DNA from: a virus
DNA length: 33,041 nt
Strand: one strand, 5' to 3'
Virus record (IMG/VR): IMGVR_UViG_3300021185_002402
Location: 1 to 33,041 of that record
Below the pieces are notes generated by a model that was not told the DNA's origin, made no database searches, and worked only from the letters and a program-made list of their open reading frames with translations. Of this stretch, positions 8,382 to 23,950 are shown piece by piece (position 1 is the first letter of the stretch; every line of letters begins with the position of its first letter). A program made the translations under genes and the position numbers.

Positions 8382-8632
8382 AAACAAATTTAACGAACAA
8401 CGAGACGGCTTGGCTGTATTGCAACAGCGGCGCAAGCCAAGCAAATGATCGCTGGAGCAGGCTCAACATGGAAAAGGCTGGAGTAACTTGGCAAGGCAAC
8501 CCCGTCCGCGCAAAGCGATCCGGTATTTTGGTTTTGCTGAAGGCCCAGCCCATTCCGAGTCATACCGATAACAATAACTGGACTAGCGAGGCAGATGCAT
8601 TAGGCGAGTGGGGTGTTGTATGGGGGCTGTAG
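8378..8632 (+). CDS. Hypothetical protein, 84 aa
   Basis: A small soluble protein with several Trp residues and no recognised family. It starts in an ATGA overlap with the annealing-protein frame and ends 13 bases into the exonuclease gene, so it is embedded in the recombination operon. The position suggests a recombination accessory role, which is inference. Confidence 0.65.
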   Translation: MKTNLTNNETAWLYCNSGASQANDRWSRLNMEKAGVTWQGNPVRAKRSGILVLLKAQPIPSHTDNNNWTSEADALGEWGVVWGL

Positions 8633-9642
8633 AACAGGGGTCAGCCGAATGGCTTGAACAGCGTAAAGGAAAGATAAGCGGAACGGCTGTTGGCGTTTTA
8701 GAGCAGTGTAATCCGTATCAAAAGCCAGAAGACCTTGTTAGGTCTATGGTCAGAGACTTGGCCGGTGCGCCGTCTGAGTTTAACGGTGGCCCAGCAGTCG
8801 CCCACGGTCAGATGATGGAGTCAGTTGCCAAGGAATGGTACGAGAGAGCCTTCAATACCACCGTAGATGAAACCGACTTCGTCGTGCATCCAATGTATGA
8901 GTTCCTCGGAGCTTCGCCAGACGGCCTTGTCGGACTGGATGGCTCTATCGAGATCAAGTGCCCATACCCTCGATTCACAAAGGCTCCCTACAGCGTTTGG
9001 GACACCAAGAAGAAGATGTACTTGCGCCAGTGCCAATTGGTCATGGAGGTGCTGGATGTCGATTGGTTGGATTTTCTTTGCTACCTATCTCCCCATGCTG
9101 ACGCAGAGCCAGAGTACAACATCGAGCGGATCCATCGCGAAGAGGGCTGGTTGCATGAGCCGCTTCCGAAAGTCCTGCTACCCAAGCCAGTAAAGGGAAC
9201 GATTCCTCGCATCGATCTCTACATCGAATGGCATGAGTACATCCACTCTGAATACGAGAACTTGTCTCGGAGAAAGGTTCACACCGACTCCGCGCAGGAG
9301 ATTTATGAGGTGGTCAAGAGCGATGAAATGGAGACGCTGTCCAAGGCTATGGTGCGCCTCAATGAACTTAGGACGGAACACTCAGCCATTCTTGGAGAGA
9401 TCTTGGGTCTCGAAAACGTGGTGAATGACGTGAAGAAAGTTGTCGCTGACAAATACTCGAACAGGAACGTGACGGATGGTGTCGTCCAATTGCAGTGCAT
9501 CAAGCGCAAAGCATCGTTCGATTTCCGCAAGGGATTTGAAGCCATTGGTGGTGAGGCGGCGTTGCTGTCAAACGGCCTTGAGCTAGAAGACTTTAGATCC
9601 TCATCCAACACACGCCAAATCAAAGTCAAAATGGGAGACTGA
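8620..9642 (+). CDS. YqaJ-type viral recombinase / lambda-exonuclease-like nuclease
   Basis: The 340-residue protein has the lambda-exonuclease/YqaJ fold in its first 200 residues: SAEWLEQRKGKISGTA (8-23), HGQMMES with Glu67, SPDG (99-102, catalytic Asp101) and E111-I-K113. It degrades one strand of dsDNA ends and hands the product to the annealing protein encoded upstream, as in lambda Exo/Beta. The C-terminal third is helical and charged. ATG 8620 was chosen; a GTG at 8608 is also possible. The gene runs three bases ahead of the SSB-like gene. Confidence 0.85.
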   Translation: MGAVEQGSAEWLEQRKGKISGTAVGVLEQCNPYQKPEDLVRSMVRDLAGAPSEFNGGPAVAHGQMMESVAKEWYERAFNTTVDETDFVVHPMYEFLGASPDGLVGLDGSIEIKCPYPRFTKAPYSVWDTKKKMYLRQCQLVMEVLDVDWLDFLCYLSPHADAEPEYNIERIHREEGWLHEPLPKVLLPKPVKGTIPRIDLYIEWHEYIHSEYENLSRRKVHTDSAQEIYEVVKSDEMETLSKAMVRLNELRTEHSAILGEILGLENVVNDVKKVVADKYSNRNVTDGVVQLQCIKRKASFDFRKGFEAIGGEAALLSNGLELEDFRSSSNTRQIKVKMGD

Positions 9643-10629: not shown

Positions 10630-10957
10630 GAGGCGTGGTGCCGCGCTCAGAGTAAAGATTCGGCACATCGATGAATTGAATCGGCAGTACCCAGAAAGGC
10701 TATGGGTGACCCTGCTGAGAATGCACTTCCGCCCTGTTGTCCCCGTTAGATTAAACCCCGCCACCACAGAGAATTTGCGTACTCGCAACGGGGAAGGTGA
10801 CGAAGTCTGGCAGGTAGGCCATGAATTCATGACCAAAGATGAAGCTATTTACAAAGCCGAGAAGCTAAGGCGTTCAAAAACGCCGCCCGTTTGGGGTACT
10901 ATCGATAAGCGGTTCGGCGACAGCTTCTTCAGTAATGAGGAGAGCGAATATGAGTGA
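10553..10957 (+). CDS. Hypothetical protein, 134 aa
   Basis: The ATG at 10553 was chosen because AGAGGAGG stands just before it; a longer frame begins at 10439 but lacks such a site and overlaps the previous gene. The N-terminus is very basic (SDLKRLRRSRSSEE) and could bind nucleic acid. The end of the protein overlaps the integrase start by eight bases. It may be an excisionase-like or accessory factor by position only; no excisionase signature is visible. Confidence 0.6.
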   Translation: MDYSDLKRLRRSRSSEEIESQKTPDKRRGAALRVKIRHIDELNRQYPERLWVTLLRMHFRPVVPVRLNPATTENLRTRNGEGDEVWQVGHEFMTKDEAIYKAEKLRRSKTPPVWGTIDKRFGDSFFSNEESEYE

Positions 10958-12020
10958 CCGCGAAATGGTAGCGTTTCGGCAAGTTGCTGAGCGCTACATA
11001 AAGCAACCGAGCAAAAGGCTAGGAAGGCCTAAAAGTCCGGCGGCTAACACCGCTATCGAGGAAGCCATTGAGCGTTACGGCAACCGGCCAATCGATAGCT
11101 TTGGAGTTTGTGACGTGACAGATTACGTCGAAGATCTGCAAGAGAAAGGCTTTAGGAGCGCGACCATCAACTCTCGGTTGCGTTACTTTATTGCTGTACT
11201 CAACTACGCAAAGAACAAGCGTGGGCTGATCGAGTCGAAGCATGTCCCATCATACGAAAACCTGAATGTGTCTGAGGATGCTCGCGAACCTAGAGTCTTA
11301 GATGAGCGAGAAGTTCAACGACTGCTGTTCTGCCTTCCCAGACTGCAATCACAGATGGTGCGCTTTGCACTGGCCACTGGCTTGCGCGTGACGAACGTCA
11401 AGTGCCTGCTGTGGAGTGAGGTGCAGGATGGGATGCTAGATATCAAAGGTTCTAAGATGAAGTCCGGCAAGCGTTTGCTGGTGCCTCTATCGCAGAGTGC
11501 TTTGGCTATCTTGGATCACATGCATGAGGCTCAGCAGGATCGTGGTCAGGACTGTGAGTACGTCTTCACGAAGCGTAATGGCAACCCTATCAGTAGGCGC
11601 ACCAGTGTCACGAACAAGGTGTGGCAACGCGCCTGTGACCGCGCAGAGATAGGGTCAGTGAGGTTTCACGATCTTAGACACACATGGGCAACCCGTCATG
11701 CGGTAGCAGGCACACCGATGCCTCTGCTTCAGAAGTTGGGGGGTTGGAGCAGTATGGCGATGCTGGAGCGTTATATGCATCTTGCCAACATGGACATGCA
11801 GAACTTCGTGAACAACGGTGCTTCGGTGCCGAGTAAATCCTATACGCAGAATGGGCCAGCGAAAGCTGGTATAGATCATTCTGTTATAGATAGACCGTCT
11901 TCCGTAAGTGTTACGGTCAAACGGCCTAGTAGAATGGTGGTGGAGCCAGACGGGATCGAACCGACGACCTCAACACTGCCAGTGTTAGGCTCAGAATCGA
12001 GCTTAACACATGTTGCATAG
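10950..12020 (+). CDS. int: Tyrosine recombinase (phage integrase)
   Basis: The 356-residue protein has a SAM-like core-binding domain (about 30-105) and a catalytic domain with Arg146 (ATGLRVTNV), His240 and Arg243 in HDLRHTWAT, Trp266 (GGW) and Tyr275 (ERYMHLA), the tyrosine nucleophile. It integrates and excises the phage at attP. ATG 10950 was chosen for GAGGAG upstream; an ATG at 10935 lacks a good site. The last 30 or so residues are read through the tRNA-derived att core, giving EPDGIEPTTSTLPVLG, a string seen in many phage proteins read across a tRNA 3' end. After integration the C-terminus may therefore be changed. Confidence 0.92.
   Translation: MSDREMVAFRQVAERYIKQPSKRLGRPKSPAANTAIEEAIERYGNRPIDSFGVCDVTDYVEDLQEKGFRSATINSRLRYFIAVLNYAKNKRGLIESKHVPSYENLNVSEDAREPRVLDEREVQRLLFCLPRLQSQMVRFALATGLRVTNVKCLLWSEVQDGMLDIKGSKMKSGKRLLVPLSQSALAILDHMHEAQQDRGQDCEYVFTKRNGNPISRRTSVTNKVWQRACDRAEIGSVRFHDLRHTWATRHAVAGTPMPLLQKLGGWSSMAMLERYMHLANMDMQNFVNNGASVPSKSYTQNGPAKAGIDHSVIDRPSSVSVTVKRPSRMVVEPDGIEPTTSTLPVLGSESSLTHVA
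11938..11990 (-). other. attP core: 3' part of tRNA-Ala(GGC)
   Basis: Reading the minus strand, the sequence has anticodon loop CTGGCAG (anticodon GGC at 11980-11978), a 5-bp anticodon stem AACA/TGTT plus T-G, a variable loop GAGGTC, the T-loop core GGTTCGATCC, acceptor strand TGGCTCC, discriminator A and CCA. No matching 5' half (D arm and acceptor strand) follows upstream, so this is a tRNA-derived integration core and not a whole tRNA gene. Confidence 0.8.
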
Positions 12021-14680: not shown

Positions 14681-14837
14681 AGGTTCCACCCCTGCGCTTG
14701 TACTCCTTGGTCAGCCAACCAGAGGCATACGCAGAGGGCCACACCTTGAACTTGCGCTTGGCCTCTGACTTGACCCGCGAGTACAGCGCCTTGTTCTTTG
14801 GAGTAGCGCCCTTATTTTTTGGCTTGGCTTTTTTCAT
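14673..14837 (-). CDS. Small basic protein, 54 aa
   Basis: The frame reads MKKAKPKNKGATPKNKALY, then RVKSEAKRKFKVWPSAYASG and WLTKEYKRRGG. The WPSAYASGWLTKEYKRRGG end resembles a small family I have seen next to DUF5872-like genes in phages. It starts in an ATGA overlap with the giant gene's stop, so it is translationally coupled to it. It is highly basic and probably binds nucleic acid or packs with the internal proteins. Confidence 0.65.
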   Translation of the reverse strand: MKKAKPKNKGATPKNKALYSRVKSEAKRKFKVWPSAYASGWLTKEYKRRGGTYA

Positions 14838-17800
14838 TGATTAGCCTCTCGATATTTCTTGTTAAATCGATCAAACAGCAAATCCATTTGGGCCTCTATT
14901 CTTTGAATCTGATCGTAGGCTCTTGCCGGATCCGACTGCATCTTTTCAATAGACTTCTTCTTCTGGCGTAATGCACGAAGCTGTTTTTGAGTCTGCTTGT
15001 ACAGAGGCTCAAGTCTGACCTTGCCCCCGAACTTCTCTAAGAATTGTCTGCGATCATCTCCAGTCGAGGCCTCCGCTTCATTGAATACTTCCTGAAGATC
15101 TCTAATGCCTTCGTAATACTCAACCTTGTCAGAGAACTGAGACGGCTCACCGACAAAATATCTTAGGATTGGAAATTCCCCCAATGACGGATCATCCTTC
15201 TCTATCTCATTGGCCATCAGAATTCCTACATCAGAAGACCTGCTGATGAACCTGCCTAGACCGCCGGTAGCAAACTCGGTTGCGTACTTGATGGCATCCG
15301 GAGACAAGTCCACGCCGCCCTTTCTGAACTCAGAGCCACCAAAAACCTCGTTAAGGAACTGCGCTGTTTCCTTATATACCTTCTCGGTAGATCGCTTTGA
15401 CTTGGATGAGTCGGGGGCCGAATCCATTAGGGAGTTTTGCTCAAGATAAATCGGAGATCCAAAGTGGTTCATGTTGGCCGACAAAGATGCAAATGGCTCA
15501 ATGATGTCTGGGACAAGATCGATCACTGCCCGAGAGGTAAAGTCCATCAAATCATCTTCCGTGCCGACAGCCCCAACAAAACCAAGGGGCGGAGGCAGGA
15601 AGTGATGAACACTTGCCGCAGTGATCTCTGCCGCAAAGTCGTTTTCATCTATTAGCCCGTGAGCTAACTCTGCCGAGAGCCGCCCCATGGTGTGAAACAT
15701 TCCATATCCGTAAGGCATGGGGATCTGAAAGAAGCTCTCCCCGTCTGGCCGCACAATGTTCCATGACATCAGCTTGTCGTATCCGGTCAGATCTTTGTAA
15801 AGGGACTCGCCATCGTCGTCCTCTTCTGCGCCGAGAATGTTATGTTCTGTAATCATGTAAGCGGTCAGGCCGATCCCTACAGCCGCCATCTGCGCTTTGT
15901 TAAGTCCTCCAGATTCTGTCCTTCCGGTCATAGCTTGGGCTATGTTTGCCGTACCCTGAACCGCCGCATTAAAGAAAAGATAGAAAGCATTTAATCCAGC
16001 AGACATCTCTCCTTTGCGGTTAAAGTTCACCGTCATGTTTTTAGCAAGATTAGCGGCCTTCTCTACCTCCACGCCATTGCGCCTTGACGCAACGTAAGCG
16101 GCGAAGCGAACCGTGTTTTCAGAGGCCGTGTTTAAGTCCTGCACAAGGTCACCGACCTTTCTTATGTTAGAGACTAGGTTGCCCTCGGTAATAATATTTT
16201 CTAACCGCTTTTTCTGCTCATCAATTTCTCTTGTCAGCGTCAGTCCAGTCGGTGCGCCAGAAGCCTGATACTCATCAAAGTACTCGTCTAGCTCTGAGTC
16301 TACCCTTCCGCCACGCAGGTTCTTGAAGTAAGCGCGAGCGGCTGGAAAGTATCCGGCGAGGATGTCGCCAGTTATTGCCTCTCCTTCAATCATTCCCCCT
16401 GACTTACTACTTTCTGACATCGTGTACATGATGCCAGTCTGTATATCGCGAAGCGGGTTGATCAGGAACCAGCTTGGGTTGTAGTTGATGAGCGTGTTAC
16501 GTCTCCATATCTGAAACTTCTGAAGAAAGTTCATGTTCTGGCCAAGGAACGTGACAAGGCTGTCAAAGTTTTCAGCGCTTACGTTATGCATTGCGTTGTT
16601 GAGAGCCTGATCTTTGATCTCGATAAAGATCTCTTTGCCGTCCTCTTTGACCGATAGGAATCGTGGCTTGTTATCCTCCTTTCTTACGGCATCCCGCATG
16701 TCAAAAGCATCCATGCGCTTTTCGCGGACTTGGCTACCGGATCTTTCTCTGTCCATGGGAAATGATGCGGGGTCTTCATAAACCGTTAGCTGTTTACTGC
16801 CCTTACCGCTTAGCTCCCTAGCAAGGCCGAGGAATCTTTGTGCCACCTCGTTTCTTCTGGCTCTGACGATTTTGTTTTCAACATCGTTCATCGCATAAAG
16901 TAAGGGGTTGTCTGACTGCGTGGTTCTGCCGAGAGCGGCCAAGACTTCTTTACCTGAGATGCTAAAGCCTCTGGGCAAGCCTTTCGGTGCCACTAGATTA
17001 CTGTCTTCGTCCAAAGACGCCGCAAAACCCTTTAACGGGACATAGAACTTATATTGCTGGTTCCAGCCGTCTACCGTATCGTCGTCAACGAGACCCGACT
17101 CAGTCAGCCTCTTGCGGTTTTCTGCAAGCATCTTGTAGGTAAGGTCAGCCGCCTCATTCATGGCTTTGGCTGTGCCGTCTGATTCAAACGTAGCTATAAC
17201 CCGCTCAGCGTCTGCGTTAGACATGCCGGATCCCGCCTCCTGTATCGCGGGGTTAATGCTTGCGATGTAACTGTTTCTTTCTGGCGCGTGTTTAGCGATT
17301 AGATAGATGCCAAAGTCATCTACGTCGATGCTGTTTTCTCGCAGTATTGTGCCAATCGGCTTTATGTAATTCTGCTCAAGACGGTCGTTGTCGTCCTTGA
17401 CCTTTCCCGAGTGCAGTGTCTCACCGACATAGGTTCGGAATCTTTCTGGTAGCTCCTTCAGCCCTAAGAATTCTGTGGCTTTCTTCTCAAACTTCTTTAG
17501 GGGAAGATACTTGTCTTGAAGTTTCCGAATGACCGCTTCGGTTCGGGTCTCGTCATCCAGATTAAACTCGCTGGTAGACGGCTTCCCATCCATCAGCGTC
17601 CCGTCATCACTAGCGTCTTGGTGTGTTTTGTTTTGACCGGACAGTCTTTTAACGAACAGGGTCTGCTCTGCTGGCTGAATTACAGCATTCTTTGCCAGCA
17701 CCAACGGGCCGACTTGAATTACTTCGTCAGCCGTAGCAATAGATTCGCCAGTGACTCGGTCATAAAACGTAGCGTGACGGCGAGGATCAAATCCAACTTG

Positions 17801-20800
17801 ACGCCATTCAGGGTCATTCAAATACTGCTGGGCAAGCCTGACGTTTTCCTCGGTTGAGCGACCAACGTATGCACCCTTGATCTGAGCGAACGGAGACTTG
17901 TTGACGCCCTCCATTACTTTCTGCGACTTCTCCTGATTAAATTTTCTAAAGTCAGCTTCAGTGATTGCCGCTGTGGCCATGTGAGACTTGGGCTTGCCTT
18001 TAGCATCGTGAATGGTAGGAACCCATGTCCCAAACTTCTCGTATGCATTAATATCGAGGCGCAGACCAACAGGCTCACCGCCTTCGATTGGGGCGTTTAC
18101 TCGATCCTTCTGACGACCAGCAAGAGCTTCAACCATCTCTTCATTGGTCGCTGGGGTAGGCACGGCCTCATACGGACGTATGGTCTCTAAGACCACTTCG
18201 TCGTATTCCTGCCGAGTAATCTGACCTGATTTAAGTGCCGCGTATGCGCGTTTTACAGAAGGCCTTACCTTGGTGTTGGGCTTGCCGACCTTAACAGTGG
18301 CGGCTAACCCTTGCTCTTCATCAGCTTGTTGAGGCTCTGTGCCGCTAGGCGCATCTTCGATTCCGGCATCGCTTCGAGAGTCCTGTTGAACTCCTCCTGC
18401 TCCGGACTGTTGCTCCAGTCCGATGATTCGCGATATTGCCTGTTCACTGACGCCTCTTTCTTTGGCGATTTTTGCGAATTCTGTTTCATAATCTGTTGGC
18501 TCCGATTTCTTGTTCGGGGTTCCCAGCTTGTTATAAAGATCCTTCTCAGGATACCAGATCAAAGCCTGAAATGCCGCTGTGTTTATGTTCTCTCCGGTGG
18601 CCGCATTAAGCTTGTCCACCGCCATTCTAGTTACCTTGCGCATGTACTCTCGCTCACCAGATCCGCGAGGAGTTTCTTGTGCTTTTGTGGCGTTCTTTAG
18701 GTTTCTAGCCGCGTTGTTTGCTGGGGTCTTGTTCTTGTAATTACCGCGAGCAAATTCACTGTTCATTTTTATGGCAAGGTCAGTAGCTACCTCGTCATCT
18801 TTCCTAAAGTCGGACACCTTTATGCCTTCTTTACGGAGTCTGGCTTTCTCGTTTGCCAAAACTTCTTCACGAAACTTTGACAGAGACTCAGGAAGCTTTC
18901 TGTCAGAGTCCGACATGAGGTTTCCGCTAATGCGACCCCAAGTACGCATGTACCAAAGATCCATTGTTAGGGTGTCGTAATTCCCCTGTAGATTTTGATA
19001 GAAACCCTGACCGATCTTAGGTCCAAGTATGGCGCTCCCTCTGACGACCGTATCGACGCCCTCACCGTTTACTTTAAATCCAGCCTCTTTAAGCTCCCGC
19101 ACGGTGAAGTCTGTGGAAAGAAATTCTCTTACGCCGTCCAGCCCCATTTCCTCAATCATTACGTTGAGTAGCTTGAAGCTTCTTTTCATCGACGGGGACT
19201 CTTTCCCGAAGCCAACGATTGGGAACTTGCCGGTCTCTATATATGAACCAAACACTTTATTAATTGTGTTGGCTGAGTTTTCATCTACAGACGAACCGTT
19301 TGAGGTAATCGCAAGAGCGGCCTTAAACATAGCCTGCTGATTGGGGCTGTCTTTAAGGTCTGGAAATATCTCTTCTGCAATCATCATTGCGTTAGCGACT
19401 TTCTGCTGATACCACTCCCCAGCATTGCCGTCTCTAGACAGAGCGTACTCTGCCTCTGCCGCCATAATGTTTGATACTATCTCGGCATTCTCGTCTGTTC
19501 GATCAGCAAGACTTCTGCCGAAGATTTGTAGAGTCCTTGTATCCAACGCCCGAGAAACGTCGGTTACTGTACGCCGATTATTTTTTCCGGTGACCTCTAC
19601 TTGTAGGGACTCTTCTCCAGATAAGAGGGTCGATGCCTCTGCCTGACTTTCTTGATCTGACAGTCCTTTAAGAAGACGCCTAACAAACAGGGTAGGAGGA
19701 TTTGCGGATTCGTCTTGTGTGCCGCCTCTCTCTTCCGCAAGGTTAATATTGACGTTCTTCATGAACGTGAAATCTGGGCTATCTAGCATGGACGCATCGA
19801 GCAAATCATTCGCCGCCGTTAGTGCCGCATCGAGATATGTTGGCTGTACACCAGTATCAGGGCCAAACAGATACTTCTTTACCCAGTCCTTAAATTTAGA
19901 AAGAAGTGTTTTACCTTCGTAATTTAAATCATGGAGCTGTTGCTGAAATTCTGGTTGAGTTAAAGCCCTGACAAAAAACTCGTCTGGCTTTCCATACGCA
20001 ATACGAGTTTCAGGAGGAAGGTTTTTAACATTTGAATTTTGAAGATTTGGGTTGGCCGCTCTTCTAAACTCGCCCCACAAGCTATACCACTGGTCTAAAG
20101 CCTCTCTTGCTTTAGGCTGATCCATGCCCAGTAGCTCATAATTTCTAGATGAGACGGCAGTGCTTAATGATCTATATCTAGCCGCAATTCCGAGGTGCAT
20201 CGCCTCATGAAGCAAGGTTGCGGTCATTCCAGAGTCTTTCGTATCTGGCATTATTGATATGGTCGGCTTGTCTTCCATGCTGACCATGCCTGCGACATTC
20301 CACAACCCGCGCTGTACGTCTGTGTCATACAGATCTTGGCTTGGCAGGGTTGCCTTGATTTTTTCCGCGAGCGCAATTACGTCCTGCGGCGCTCCTTCGA
20401 CCGCTATGTCTATGGCTTTAGGCAGATCTCCAAACGCGAACGCAGATACAGACTCTTCAGGGAGTGAGCGCTGTACGAAGCTAGAGATTGGCTTAGCCTT
20501 GCCGCGAACTAGATCTGGATTTGAGGCGATCTCAGTATAGTAAGACGTTCCTTTTACACCCGATCCAGAGACGACAGCGACTGTAGCCATCTTCTTAATA
20601 AAGTCTCGGCGAGACTGCTCTTGCTTTGAAGGCTTTTTGTTTAAGCGTCTTGCAAACAAGCTCCCCTGTTCTGGGGTTTCGTCTACTCGCTCTTGGAGTA
20701 GAGTAGATCCGTCACCGTCCCCAGCTTCTTGTTGGGTCTCTCCGCCCACTCCCTGATTGGCTTGCCCCGCTTGAGCGCCATCGAGGCCAGCTTCTCCAGA

Positions 20801-23800
20801 TCCTCCGTCCGCTTCCACTTCAGCGCTTCCGCTGACGGTGGATGGCCGAACTTCTCCCTGTACTCCTGTACCTTCGGGCTGTACTCCGACGTTGGTATCT
20901 TGAACTCTCGCATCATTCTCTCCAGTCGCAAGTGTCGGGTTATCCCGAATAGTGCGAATTACATTGTACGCCTCTGGCGCTTGTTCTTTAAGTAACTTTG
21001 GGTTGCTTAGGTATACCGCACCAAGCTGAGCGAAAGACTCCTTGCGAATAAATTCCGCAAGGTCTTCTGCGTTTGTAGCGGGGCCAGCTTGCTGTTCAAT
21101 CTCATTAAACGGGTAGGTAAATCTACGCCCCAACTCAGTCTTCTGTAGGTAGTTTTCGTATAGATCTGCAATTGCATCACCCAAAACAACCTTCGGCCCC
21201 TCGCCGCTGAAGACGACTTCTGCATTGAATGATGGCAACTGGCCGCTAATATCATTAGCGTTGTCGAGAACGTGCCACGCTTCATGCGCTAATACATATC
21301 TCAACTCTCTGTCAGCATTAGCATCTGTAGTAGATTGGGATACTAAACTGGATTCAATAGACATTCTGTCTGAAACCGTGGCACCAAGTCCCTGAGACTG
21401 GGCAGGAGAGTGGGTTGCCAGAGCCTGTATTTGGCTTACAAAATCTACAGGAAGACCAGCTTCGATAAGATCGAATATCGATTGCTGAATCTCGTTTATC
21501 GTGTCGGCATCCCCAAGGCTATCCATTGGTTTTGCTTCGACATTCTGTTGCTTGCCGTCTACTGTTTCGTTGAAAAACGTAGGACGGCGCATAGCATCTG
21601 CAATCTTTTCGGCTATGCCTTCGATTGCCCGTATTGTTATAAGGTCGTCGCTGTTTGCTGGCTTCGTAGGCTGTCCAGCAAGGACATCTATCCTGTCCTG
21701 ACGAGACTCAAGAGTTTCCTGATTAGCGTTGACCACATCCCCCTCAAAAGAGAGCCACTGATCTGCCGCATCAAAGGTTTGTCGAACATCAAATTCAGTC
21801 TGATCAGTTCTACTGAAAAGAGCTTCCGTTTCTTGCTGAAGAGCGGACTGAATTCCGGCTGGAGAGGACGCAATTGCGGCCTGAACTTCTTCAATCGTAA
21901 CTTCATCTATGGTTGTATCCAGACCTTGAGCTTCCCTCTCGTCGAATACAGCCATTTGTAACTTATCGGATAAGTCATCGAACTGCGCCTGCCCAGTGGC
22001 TAAGTCCTGAGTCATAGACTCCTGCTGTATCCTAGCTCGCTCCGCCTCAACGGCCTGAACGGTTCGCTTGCTTCTAAACACACGCGGCTGGCCGTTCATG
22101 GTTTCCGCGTTAATCGCAACGGCCTCACCGTCTTTATTGCGCTGAGTATCTATATAGCGATAAGTCTTTCCGCGAGCCACAAAGGTGTCGTCGTCTGCGT
22201 TGTACTGAGCCTCTGAGTCCGGAGTATTGACCTCAACATCTTTCGGCCTTACACCTAATAAAGTAGCGGCGGTAGATCCGGCGTCAGATTCACCGCTCTC
22301 CACTACAACCTGATCACCCTGCGGCGTCACGACAACGTAGACACCATCCTCACGTCGGGTAAGAGTGCCCTCAATGCCCTGATAATCTACTGAGCTTCGC
22401 TCTAAAGACTCCATGGTTCGATCAGGGCCAAGCTCAATAGTCGGGCCGCTCGGAATAACTGTTAACTTCTCAGCCTCTTTGGCGGCGAGTGCATTCTCTT
22501 CAGGCGTGGCGTCTCCCGTTTCAAAAATTGAAGCAGGAATGATTTCATTAACAACCTTTCTAGCTCTCAAAGATCTGCGAAGAGACTCGTTTAAGTCTGT
22601 TTCGTATCGAGCATTCCGAGCCTCTTCTGGAGACGTTGTTTCTCGATCTACTGCCTGCTCTGGTAGACCTTGCGCCCTACGCGCCGCCGCTCTTTGTCTG
22701 GCCTGCGCTTCACCTACCCGCGCATCAGTCTCAGCATCAACGTCTCTGTCTGTAATGTCAGGCATAGATTGAGGAAAGCCTTGAGCCTTGCGGCGAGCAT
22801 CACGCTGATCTTGTCGAGCGGCCTCAAGTATAGATTGAGTCTCTGGATCCACTTCATTTGCATCAGGAACCGTCTCTGCTCCATCCGGAGCATCCTCTTC
22901 GACAGTGTCGGTAGTGGGTTCTCTATCAACCCTAACGTCATCGACTCTATTCTCTTTGCGGTTCAGCGCACCCGTAAAGCTTCCTGTAGCGGCCCCGCCA
23001 ATAGCTCCAACTGCCGCCGCATTCAGAAGGCGACTAACTAACTGATCATCTGGATTATTGACGTTCTTGATGAACTCATCGAAGTATTCTGCATATCCTC
23101 CCATGGGGTCGTTCCGCATCATCCCCACAGCAGTCGCCTGTATAAGCTCTTGTCCTGCCTCTGTGATGCCCTCGGCTCCAGCAGACAAACCGCCCTGCAA
23201 AAGAACGCGGCGAGTAACGCCTCCATTCTTAACGAGCTTGTCTGCCACCCCATCTTTGAACTTATTAAATACCGTATCCGGCATTATTCTCTTGAGGGCG
23301 ACAAACGGTAAAACAGAATCTAATGCGCCAGCGGCAACCCCCGCCGCAAGTGCTACATCAGGTGCCTCTATTCCTGTCTCTTCGTATATGTCTACGAAGG
23401 TGCCGCCTGTGTTTTGCGCGGCAGAAGCTCCAAAGGTTCCGACCGCCTGTCCAAGCGTTCTATATCCAGCGGTATCCGCGTCAAGCGTCTCTCTAAGAAT
23501 TCGTTTCTTTACGCGCTCAGAAACCTTGTCCTCAACCGCGTCTTTAACCTCTCTTTGTATTCGATCTTTTGTAAATTTCTTCGCTACGCCCTGCGCTACA
23601 GCGCCACCAATGCCGCCTCCAGCAATGCTGGTCGCGATGGAAGGCAGGATGGTGCCAGCCGAATAGGTGGCCCATCGAACAAAGTCGGAAGCCCCGTCTA
23701 TATCCTCGATGTTGGTAACCGTGCCGCTGGATTCGCCTGCCTCTTGAAACTTTCTCTGAGCGTAGTTCAGATACTCAATTGCCTCTTCTTCATCTCCAGT

Positions 23801-23950
23801 TATAGAGTTGAAAAGAGAGCGAACACCACCAAGGCTTCCAAGGGTTGTATCAACCCCAGAGGAAAATCCAGAAGTAAATTCTGAAAGGTAGCTTTTATCC
23901 TGCTCTTCTTGAAAGTTTCTGCTGTCGCCTCTGCGATATTTTACGCGCAC
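14834..23950 (-). CDS. Giant modular polyvalent internal-virion protein, 3038 aa
   Basis: This protein, probably ejected with the DNA, has recognisable modules. Residues 1-340 are Gly/Ala-rich amphipathic segments of the phage internal-protein type. A zincin-like HEAWH lies at 889-893 with a possible third ligand Glu971. A Tat-like signal SRRDFIKK is at 1113-1120, then a second zincin HEAMH at 1248-1252 with possible Glu1324. Residues 1643-1673 (GPKIGQGF...TMDLWYMR) recall a HhH-GPD glycosylase hairpin. AKHAPERN at 2219-2226 and NPSWFLINPLRD at 2491-2502 mark the large-polyvalent-protein (LPD38-like) C-terminal region, with a coiled coil at the end. LF-type motifs at 711, 1098, 1421 and 2098 separate modules. 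The GTG start has AGAGG upstream. Confidence 0.8.
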   Translation of the reverse strand: MRVKYRRGDSRNFQEEQDKSYLSEFTSGFSSGVDTTLGSLGGVRSLFNSITGDEEEAIEYLNYAQRKFQEAGESSGTVTNIEDIDGASDFVRWATYSAGTILPSIATSIAGGGIGGAVAQGVAKKFTKDRIQREVKDAVEDKVSERVKKRILRETLDADTAGYRTLGQAVGTFGASAAQNTGGTFVDIYEETGIEAPDVALAAGVAAGALDSVLPFVALKRIMPDTVFNKFKDGVADKLVKNGGVTRRVLLQGGLSAGAEGITEAGQELIQATAVGMMRNDPMGGYAEYFDEFIKNVNNPDDQLVSRLLNAAAVGAIGGAATGSFTGALNRKENRVDDVRVDREPTTDTVEEDAPDGAETVPDANEVDPETQSILEAARQDQRDARRKAQGFPQSMPDITDRDVDAETDARVGEAQARQRAAARRAQGLPEQAVDRETTSPEEARNARYETDLNESLRRSLRARKVVNEIIPASIFETGDATPEENALAAKEAEKLTVIPSGPTIELGPDRTMESLERSSVDYQGIEGTLTRREDGVYVVVTPQGDQVVVESGESDAGSTAATLLGVRPKDVEVNTPDSEAQYNADDDTFVARGKTYRYIDTQRNKDGEAVAINAETMNGQPRVFRSKRTVQAVEAERARIQQESMTQDLATGQAQFDDLSDKLQMAVFDEREAQGLDTTIDEVTIEEVQAAIASSPAGIQSALQQETEALFSRTDQTEFDVRQTFDAADQWLSFEGDVVNANQETLESRQDRIDVLAGQPTKPANSDDLITIRAIEGIAEKIADAMRRPTFFNETVDGKQQNVEAKPMDSLGDADTINEIQQSIFDLIEAGLPVDFVSQIQALATHSPAQSQGLGATVSDRMSIESSLVSQSTTDANADRELRYVLAHEAWHVLDNANDISGQLPSFNAEVVFSGEGPKVVLGDAIADLYENYLQKTELGRRFTYPFNEIEQQAGPATNAEDLAEFIRKESFAQLGAVYLSNPKLLKEQAPEAYNVIRTIRDNPTLATGENDARVQDTNVGVQPEGTGVQGEVRPSTVSGSAEVEADGGSGEAGLDGAQAGQANQGVGGETQQEAGDGDGSTLLQERVDETPEQGSLFARRLNKKPSKQEQSRRDFIKKMATVAVVSGSGVKGTSYYTEIASNPDLVRGKAKPISSFVQRSLPEESVSAFAFGDLPKAIDIAVEGAPQDVIALAEKIKATLPSQDLYDTDVQRGLWNVAGMVSMEDKPTISIMPDTKDSGMTATLLHEAMHLGIAARYRSLSTAVSSRNYELLGMDQPKAREALDQWYSLWGEFRRAANPNLQNSNVKNLPPETRIAYGKPDEFFVRALTQPEFQQQLHDLNYEGKTLLSKFKDWVKKYLFGPDTGVQPTYLDAALTAANDLLDASMLDSPDFTFMKNVNINLAEERGGTQDESANPPTLFVRRLLKGLSDQESQAEASTLLSGEESLQVEVTGKNNRRTVTDVSRALDTRTLQIFGRSLADRTDENAEIVSNIMAAEAEYALSRDGNAGEWYQQKVANAMMIAEEIFPDLKDSPNQQAMFKAALAITSNGSSVDENSANTINKVFGSYIETGKFPIVGFGKESPSMKRSFKLLNVMIEEMGLDGVREFLSTDFTVRELKEAGFKVNGEGVDTVVRGSAILGPKIGQGFYQNLQGNYDTLTMDLWYMRTWGRISGNLMSDSDRKLPESLSKFREEVLANEKARLRKEGIKVSDFRKDDEVATDLAIKMNSEFARGNYKNKTPANNAARNLKNATKAQETPRGSGEREYMRKVTRMAVDKLNAATGENINTAAFQALIWYPEKDLYNKLGTPNKKSEPTDYETEFAKIAKERGVSEQAISRIIGLEQQSGAGGVQQDSRSDAGIEDAPSGTEPQQADEEQGLAATVKVGKPNTKVRPSVKRAYAALKSGQITRQEYDEVVLETIRPYEAVPTPATNEEMVEALAGRQKDRVNAPIEGGEPVGLRLDINAYEKFGTWVPTIHDAKGKPKSHMATAAITEADFRKFNQEKSQKVMEGVNKSPFAQIKGAYVGRSTEENVRLAQQYLNDPEWRQVGFDPRRHATFYDRVTGESIATADEVIQVGPLVLAKNAVIQPAEQTLFVKRLSGQNKTHQDASDDGTLMDGKPSTSEFNLDDETRTEAVIRKLQDKYLPLKKFEKKATEFLGLKELPERFRTYVGETLHSGKVKDDNDRLEQNYIKPIGTILRENSIDVDDFGIYLIAKHAPERNSYIASINPAIQEAGSGMSNADAERVIATFESDGTAKAMNEAADLTYKMLAENRKRLTESGLVDDDTVDGWNQQYKFYVPLKGFAASLDEDSNLVAPKGLPRGFSISGKEVLAALGRTTQSDNPLLYAMNDVENKIVRARRNEVAQRFLGLARELSGKGSKQLTVYEDPASFPMDRERSGSQVREKRMDAFDMRDAVRKEDNKPRFLSVKEDGKEIFIEIKDQALNNAMHNVSAENFDSLVTFLGQNMNFLQKFQIWRRNTLINYNPSWFLINPLRDIQTGIMYTMSESSKSGGMIEGEAITGDILAGYFPAARAYFKNLRGGRVDSELDEYFDEYQASGAPTGLTLTREIDEQKKRLENIITEGNLVSNIRKVGDLVQDLNTASENTVRFAAYVASRRNGVEVEKAANLAKNMTVNFNRKGEMSAGLNAFYLFFNAAVQGTANIAQAMTGRTESGGLNKAQMAAVGIGLTAYMITEHNILGAEEDDDGESLYKDLTGYDKLMSWNIVRPDGESFFQIPMPYGYGMFHTMGRLSAELAHGLIDENDFAAEITAASVHHFLPPPLGFVGAVGTEDDLMDFTSRAVIDLVPDIIEPFASLSANMNHFGSPIYLEQNSLMDSAPDSSKSKRSTEKVYKETAQFLNEVFGGSEFRKGGVDLSPDAIKYATEFATGGLGRFISRSSDVGILMANEIEKDDPSLGEFPILRYFVGEPSQFSDKVEYYEGIRDLQEVFNEAEASTGDDRRQFLEKFGGKVRLEPLYKQTQKQLRALRQKKKSIEKMQSDPARAYDQIQRIEAQMDLLFDRFNKKYREANQ
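18304..18447 (-). CDS. Nested +1-frame ORF inside giant gene, 47 aa (candidate)
   Basis: The frame begins with GTG, six bases after AAAGAGG, and reads NRQYRESSDWSNSPEQEEF and onward to LNKLMKSKG. It lies in the +1 frame of the giant gene, over a low-complexity linker (giant residues about 1835-1883, rich in Gln, Gly and Asp). The nested product looks more like a natural protein than the linker does. An ATG at 18489 in the same frame would give 61 residues. It may be an overprinted gene or chance. Confidence 0.35.
   Translation of the reverse strand: MNRQYRESSDWSNSPEQEEFNRTLEAMPESKMRLAAQSLNKLMKSKG
20683..20916 (-). CDS. Nested +1-frame ORF inside giant gene, 77 aa (candidate)
   Basis: The frame starts at an ATGATG pair after CTGGAGAG, a well-placed ribosome-binding site. 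It reads EYSPKVQEYREKFGHPPSAE, then ALKWKRTEDLEKLASMALKR and GKPIREWAERPNKKLGTVTD, ending LLYSKSE. It has balanced charge and aromatic content and a look I associate with small phage proteins. The giant frame here is a Gly/Gln/Glu/Ala linker (residues about 1012-1090). Third-base G/C is high (by hand about 47 of 56 codons), but that base is also the giant frame's first base, so this alone proves little. Confidence 0.5.
   Translation of the reverse strand: MMREFKIPTSEYSPKVQEYREKFGHPPSAEALKWKRTEDLEKLASMALKRGKPIREWAERPNKKLGTVTDLLYSKSE

Follow-up and report, generated by a model that had tools for sequence, protein, structure and literature searches.

We report here that the gene of a giant polyvalent protein very probably contains a second protein-coding gene, which is nested in its +1 frame and has an internal start of its own. 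The two genes are located on a virus record of 33,041 bases (IMG/VR record IMGVR_UViG_3300021185_002402; this whole stretch is called the window). The giant gene occupies 14834..23950 on the minus strand and encodes 3038 amino acids. The nested gene at 20683..20913 on the same strand extends from an ATG to a TAG and would encode a protein of 76 amino acids (about 8.9 kDa, isoelectric point (pI) about 9.6). Directly upstream of it, the giant gene codes for a zincin-like metallopeptidase domain (20930..21514, minus strand, the borders being the limits of the aligned region) with the motif HEAWH at about 21272-21286. A first-pass annotation of the window had described an open reading frame (ORF) at 20683-20916 on the minus strand, and indeed 77 codons and a stop codon are found there, wholly within the giant ORF 14834-23950 and in phase +1. 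The ATGATG proposed as its start is present after CTGGAGAG, but the first ATG (20914..20916), from which a product of 77 amino acids had been deduced, is not the conserved one: the relatives L004, L005 and L006 have AAG, GTG and ACA, respectively, at this position. As the comparison of the members revealed, the conserved start is the second ATG (20911-20913), 21 codons before an FGH motif, and the product therefore has 76 amino acids. A Shine-Dalgarno-like GGAG (20920..20923, minus strand) is located 6 nucleotides before this ATG. In the giant frame, the same DNA (20686..20913, minus strand; giant residues 1013-1089, approximately) encodes the low-complexity spacer rich in Gly, Gln, Ala and Glu that had been described: 17 Gly, 9 Gln, 8 Ala, 8 Val and 8 Glu account for most of its 76 residues, and only 3 of 594 stretches of equal length have a lower entropy.

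In a single sequence the open +1 frame is not remarkable: when the giant frame was shuffled synonymously, 12-36% of the shuffles still had it open (12 members). The question therefore rests on conservation, and it is the conservation of the nested ORF rather than its openness that, judged from the sequences, exceeds chance. The nested ORF is present in 59 IMG/VR contigs, where its place and phase within a giant ORF are the same. When IMG/VR was scanned with the small protein, 4, then 10, 13 and 14 loci were returned as the profile grew, and then 34 and 25 loci. All 109 loci that were kept hold the nested ORF (several loci per contig are common in this count); after removal of identical entries, they give 45 nucleotide sequences and 44 proteins. 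These counts omit the window itself (L001), the named phages without the ORF (L002 and L020-L025), L073 and L074, as well as L096, L097 and L122-L127; loci from outside IMG/VR are thus left out. L122, a tblastn match of 25 residues unconfirmed by the profile, was dropped, so that 24 of the 25 loci of that scan were kept; L074 from Streptomyces, with 17 residues inside a frame of 1884 amino acids, was judged to be a chance match. The nested ORF lies wholly inside the giant ORF in 44 of the 45 distinct sequences, and in the remaining one (L087/L120) it runs off the contig end together with its giant. To lower the bias of searching with the small protein, we also scanned with the protease domain only. 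The first of these scans returned at least 26 loci, many of them only 26-37% identical in that domain, and 26 of 26 carry the nested ORF in phase +1; the second, made with a more divergent subset, returned 21 loci, all of which carry it (one is cut by the contig end). Together, the two scans cover at least 47 loci on 44 contigs, 21 of which (13 and 8) were new when found, and their reach ends short of more distant zincins. Every returned locus of this protease clade had the frame open and conserved; neither the stop codons nor the lack of conservation that the first-pass annotation had named as evidence against a gene was seen. The giants of the named phages L020-L025 and the locus of the named phage L002 do not contain the nested ORF (best E 5.6 and 1.2, respectively, with an 11-member profile), and those of L020-L025 also lack this protease domain (search at an E limit of 0.001).

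Several comparisons indicate that the alternate frame is under protein-level selection of its own. Over the overlap, all 66 pairs of a set of 12 members have a higher amino acid identity in the +1 frame than in the giant frame, and so do 170 of the 171 pairs of a set of 19 members. The nucleotide identity of the overlap, 0.59 on average, is higher than that of the protease domain in all 171 pairs of the 19 members, and in 170 of these pairs the small protein surpasses the protease domain in conservation. What looks like a featureless linker at the protein level is better conserved as DNA than the adjoining protease domain, and the other frame would be the reason. For the shuffle controls we used 117 of the 136 pairs of 17 members, i.e. 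those that differ at more than 30% of their bases. When the giant residues were kept and only the codons were shuffled, the identity in the +1 frame averaged 0.155 and never exceeded 0.174 in 2000 shuffles, as compared to the observed 0.473. In the reverse case, when only the small protein was kept, the giant frame was open in a mean of 5.0 and at most 12 members, as compared to the observed 17 of 17. The openness of the giant frame is thus clearly maintained, and its residues are only weakly constrained in the overlap. Finally, a sliding comparison of the window with L004, L005 and L006, limited to positions with at least 30% giant identity, gave +1 identities above the giant identity in 16, 10 and 4 of 407, 230 and 361 positions, respectively, and none of these was outside the overlap region.

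The nested ORF also has its own conserved initiation signals. A start codon is found 20-22 codons before the FGH-type motif in all 45 distinct sequences (41 ATG and 4 GTG), whereas ATG or GTG occupies 5.0% of the control +1-frame positions in the giants. GGAG, GAGG or AGGA is present 4-11 nucleotides upstream of the start in 30 of 34 tested members, as compared to 6640 of 78,680 +1-frame positions (8.4%) elsewhere in the same giants. Moreover, there is just one open codon ahead of the start in the alternate frame of 9 of the 45 sequences, and at most five such codons in 20 of them. As these conserved signals suggest, ribosomes would start the nested gene independently, at an internal Shine-Dalgarno site and an ATG or GTG on the mRNA of the giant itself. 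The proposal that a second gene is hidden here is thus borne out by the conservation, the selection pattern and the initiation signals.

The small protein is 72-92 amino acids long, with a pI of 8 or more in 28 of the 33 complete aligned members, and its motif is close to YxxxFGHxPSxEA...A..AL..gkPi..W..Rp..ktGt..D..Y. AlphaFold2, run with 20 sequences, predicts five short helices (predicted local distance difference test (pLDDT) 71.3, predicted template modelling score 0.51). The likeness to known small phage proteins that had been noted from the sequence was not confirmed by the family searches: with the 33 members, no significant match was obtained in PHROGs, Pfam, NCBIfam, PADLOC or the PDB sequences, the best values being 0.0078 for a PHROG, 0.08 in NCBIfam and 0.14 for a PDB sequence. 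Pfam DUF3046 (0.0078 in 2 of 33 members) and the matches of single members to PADLOC AbiZ (0.0077) and to the PHROG (0.0078) were judged to be due to chance. The same holds true for gene 1 of Alteromonas phage PT11-V19 (E 0.5) and for matches in Mycobacterium, Pseudomonas, Caulobacter, Salmonella, Microbacterium, Edwardsiella and faecal phages (E 0.2 or worse). A homologue outside the overlap, which the first-pass annotation had asked for, was found only as a single weak stand-alone candidate. This is an ORF of 84 amino acids at L123:7864-8115 on the plus strand of a gammaproteobacterial genome, with AGGAGG before its ATG, and it lies near an integrase, RepC and an AAA protein. Its pairwise profile probability with the small-protein family is 96.7, not corrected for a database. 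Besides a fragment in a metagenome-assembled genome (MAG), it was found in one of 369 class-level genomes (E 8.5e-6 for one genome), and searches of the phage and plasmid collections gave no relative. The fragment is the core of the small gene at L073:9974-10183 (L073/L096, a gammaproteobacterial MAG contig, coverage 0.63); it was not counted as a full stand-alone gene since it has no start and lies, with no giant, near the contig end. Matches in G443 and G461 (E 0.004 and 0.008; 398 genomes) and in G416 (E 4.8e-4 to the stand-alone candidate, in a frame of 505 amino acids) were judged to be chance matches. A free-standing family of the small protein may exist, to judge from this single case.

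A number of points weigh against the interpretation of the ORF as a gene and have to be considered together. The sequences are related, and the counts of 66 and 171 pairs as well as the shuffles thus overstate the independence of the comparisons. For the start present in 45 of 45 sequences, five positions, 19-23 codons ahead of the FGH-type motif, were allowed in the search, and for the 30 of 34 members with a ribosome site, the words and the spacing were set after the start regions of the members had been inspected. In 47 of 66 pairs, the third position of the alternate codons has the most differences between members, the totals being 1481, 1244 and 1674 for positions 1-3; this signal is only moderate because the two frames share the same DNA. 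When only the small protein was kept, the shuffles gave a giant-frame identity with a mean of 0.284 and a maximum of 0.314. The observed value of 0.319 is only slightly higher but above every one of them, indicating that the giant residues in the overlap are not wholly free or that shared ancestry is visible. In addition, searches of 50,697 phage records (matches at E 0.2 or worse) and of 72,556 plasmids revealed no homologue of the small protein. Finally, at the modest pLDDT of 71 there is no significant fold match; the best value was 7.8 in the PDB, and the best match in BFVD was an uncharacterised protein of 58 amino acids (E 0.52, probability 0.94).

What could be the function of the product? 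The gene may be real and its product independent of the giant, as an early host-takeover or regulatory protein or as a minor virion protein, the place in the giant being a matter of history; we give this possibility not quite an even chance. It is in agreement with the weak stand-alone candidate close to an integrase and RepC in one gammaproteobacterial genome, and with the better conservation of the small protein as compared to the neighbouring protease domain. On the other hand, the spacing between the protease of this clade and the nested gene behind it is similar among the giants, and this hints at something beyond history. Our tentative proposal, to which we give a slightly lower chance, is that the protease-bearing giant has a dedicated partner in the small helical protein, which might act as a chaperone, as a packaging adaptor or as a restraint of the zincin protease, because the small gene is located directly behind the protease domain in every locus of the protease scans, whatever modules follow. 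Three arguments speak against such a partnership: physical linkage alone could explain the co-occurrence of the nested gene and the protease, none of the ten scanned neighbours of the stand-alone candidate matches a zincin, and there is no nested ORF of the same family behind the second HExxH domain of the giant (see below). It is tempting to speculate even further that an injected giant with a protease and its small restraint or chaperone are encoded in two frames of the same DNA, that the protease module could therefore not be exchanged without its partner, and that a nested effector-and-restraint pair has been kept through module shuffling; we regard this extended scenario as rather unlikely.

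The remaining explanations dispense with a separate gene or with a protein. The +1 frame might be entered by programmed frameshifting from the giant, resulting in a protease with a short alternative tail. The phase would be suitable and the open region begins just behind the protease domain; however, such a product is disfavoured because in 9 of the 45 sequences the open stretch of the frame precedes the start by a single codon, and because an ATG or GTG with a ribosome site is conserved at this place instead; we consider it very improbable, although no search for slippery sequences was made. There is similarly little to be said for the DNA itself being conserved as a recombination hot spot for the swapping of downstream modules. 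The sharp difference between the downstream modules just behind the overlap, the conservation of the overlap DNA above that of the protease domain in every pair and the moderate codon-position signal would fit this idea, but the residues are retained although the nucleotide identity averages 0.59, and the alternate frame surpasses the giant frame in all but one of the 171 pairs. Moreover, conservation at the DNA level alone would not favour one frame, hold it open, or retain a start and a ribosome site. That the ORF is a non-coding chance product of a low-complexity linker is hardly credible: single sequences are open often enough under synonymous shuffling, but the conserved starts, ribosome sites and alternate-frame residues as well as the presence of the ORF in 26 of 26 (of at least 26) and 21 of 21 loci of the protease scans are at odds with this.

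If the nested gene is real, the giant frame over the overlap would mainly be a flexible spacer that must stay open, with weakly constrained residues. The low complexity and the weak constraint on the residues fit the idea that the giant frame is the younger one; codon usage resulted in a tie (10 of 20) when it was used to determine the older frame, and every giant of the clade that was returned has both frames. We slightly favour a scenario in which the small gene was once located between protease and cargo modules that were later fused by read-through in another frame.

The giant itself can, from its sequence, be classified as a phage polyvalent protein, i.e. a multidomain protein that combines a zincin metallopeptidase with an LPD domain. 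In the protease domain, the HExxH motif, the Asp three residues further on and the Glu of E-FAQ are invariant in 19 of 19 aligned members. The Pfam matches of this domain are weak (M90 in 8, ATLF in 5 and eCIS_core in 1 of 11 members), and the domain of the window matches only M90, with a value of 0.025 that is below the cut-off. The LPD38 domain is located at 15164..15802 on the minus strand (residues 2717-2929; E 4.5e-31). The genes upstream of the giant match PHROGs of tail and internal virion proteins, and the giant is thus encoded among virion genes. Immediately after the overlap, the giants of the relatives continue with different modules, which places the nested gene at the junction of the protease and exchangeable cargo. 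Relatives of the C-terminal third of the giant occur in 130 phage records, among them Vibrio, Burkholderia and Escherichia phages; the protease-bearing third has no relative in the phage records at an E limit of 0.001, and the same was observed for the protease domain of another member. A second HExxH motif (HEAMH in the giant of the window; also L027:7104-7323) is present in the module that comes after the overlap, and part of the protease profile matches at this site. The motif LFx[RK](R) occurs in the giant at residues 716, 1103, 1426, 2103 and 3030 (approximately, in open-frame numbering), three of these positions being apparent module boundaries. This is more often than expected (5 as compared to 1.05, P 0.005, for the giant of the window), and the motif could possibly be a processing site; the idea of a cleavage site led nowhere, as the enrichment is largely confined to the closest relatives of the window. 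Just behind the overlap, at about 20560-20620 on the minus strand, the giant reads SRRDFIKKMATVAVVSG, a twin-arginine-like stretch, for which the NCBIfam TAT match reached only an E of 0.31. In L003, a nearly identical virus, about 180-200 residues of the giant (approximately 1923-2102) are missing; they form the module with the phrog_586/L5 gp82-like match, and the difference between the two viruses appears to be a recent gain or loss. Finally, matches to an integrase at 10935-12020 and to a RecE-like exonuclease at 8608-9642, both on the plus strand of the window, suggest that the phage is temperate.

Small genes in an alternate frame of the same strand are well known from double-stranded DNA phages, as in the overlapping genes of the Rz/Rz1 spanins, and an annotated overlapping pair of the Rz/Rz1 type was seen in BcepIL02; in contrast, the gene described here lies in a polyvalent-protein gene, and both the proteins and the place are different. 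Nested genes of tailed phages are usually single cases, whereas the one presented here can be tested across 45 distinct sequences and was also ascertained independently via the neighbouring protease domain. Our work suggests that a second gene can be concealed in giant polyvalent-protein genes and would probably be overlooked by ordinary annotation (there is no annotation for the contigs used here). The nested gene also offers a well-defined way of studying how injected polyproteins may be controlled. The overlapped ORFs of the Pseudomonas phage Fc02 are likewise small genes in an alternate frame of the same strand of a tailed phage; in the available part of that paper they concern other proteins and places and are not in a polyvalent-protein gene (PMC9936078). 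Among the literature matches listed, no title or beginning of an abstract dealt with a gene nested in a polyvalent-protein gene. One paper, as far as its text was available, contains both terms, "polyvalent protein" in a reference and "overlapping gene" for two start variants of a terminase gene (PMC13299392). Thus, while nested genes as such are already known, the matches listed contain neither this family nor its location in a polyvalent-protein gene nor its association with one protease clade that precedes it. Zincin domains are known from phage polyvalent proteins, including a widespread phage-type domain with an Asp three residues behind HExxH, and polyprotein processing or, alternatively, a role as an effector has been proposed for them in the available text of Iyer et al. 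2017 (PMC5512222). The giant studied here resembles the proteins described there in its size and multidomain architecture, in the HExxH zincin with the Asp at +3, in the LPD38 domain and in the vicinity of virion genes (PMC5512222). It differs by the small gene nested at the junction of protease and cargo; the main text of that paper does not use the terms "overlapping", "out-of-frame" or "small protein" (PMC5512222). A precedent for a small gene under a fused large one comes from hepatitis B virus, an unrelated virus with unrelated proteins, in which the small S gene overlaps part of the polymerase gene: the model proposed in the available part of that work is that the small gene was once located between two genes that now form one protein (PMC8227390).

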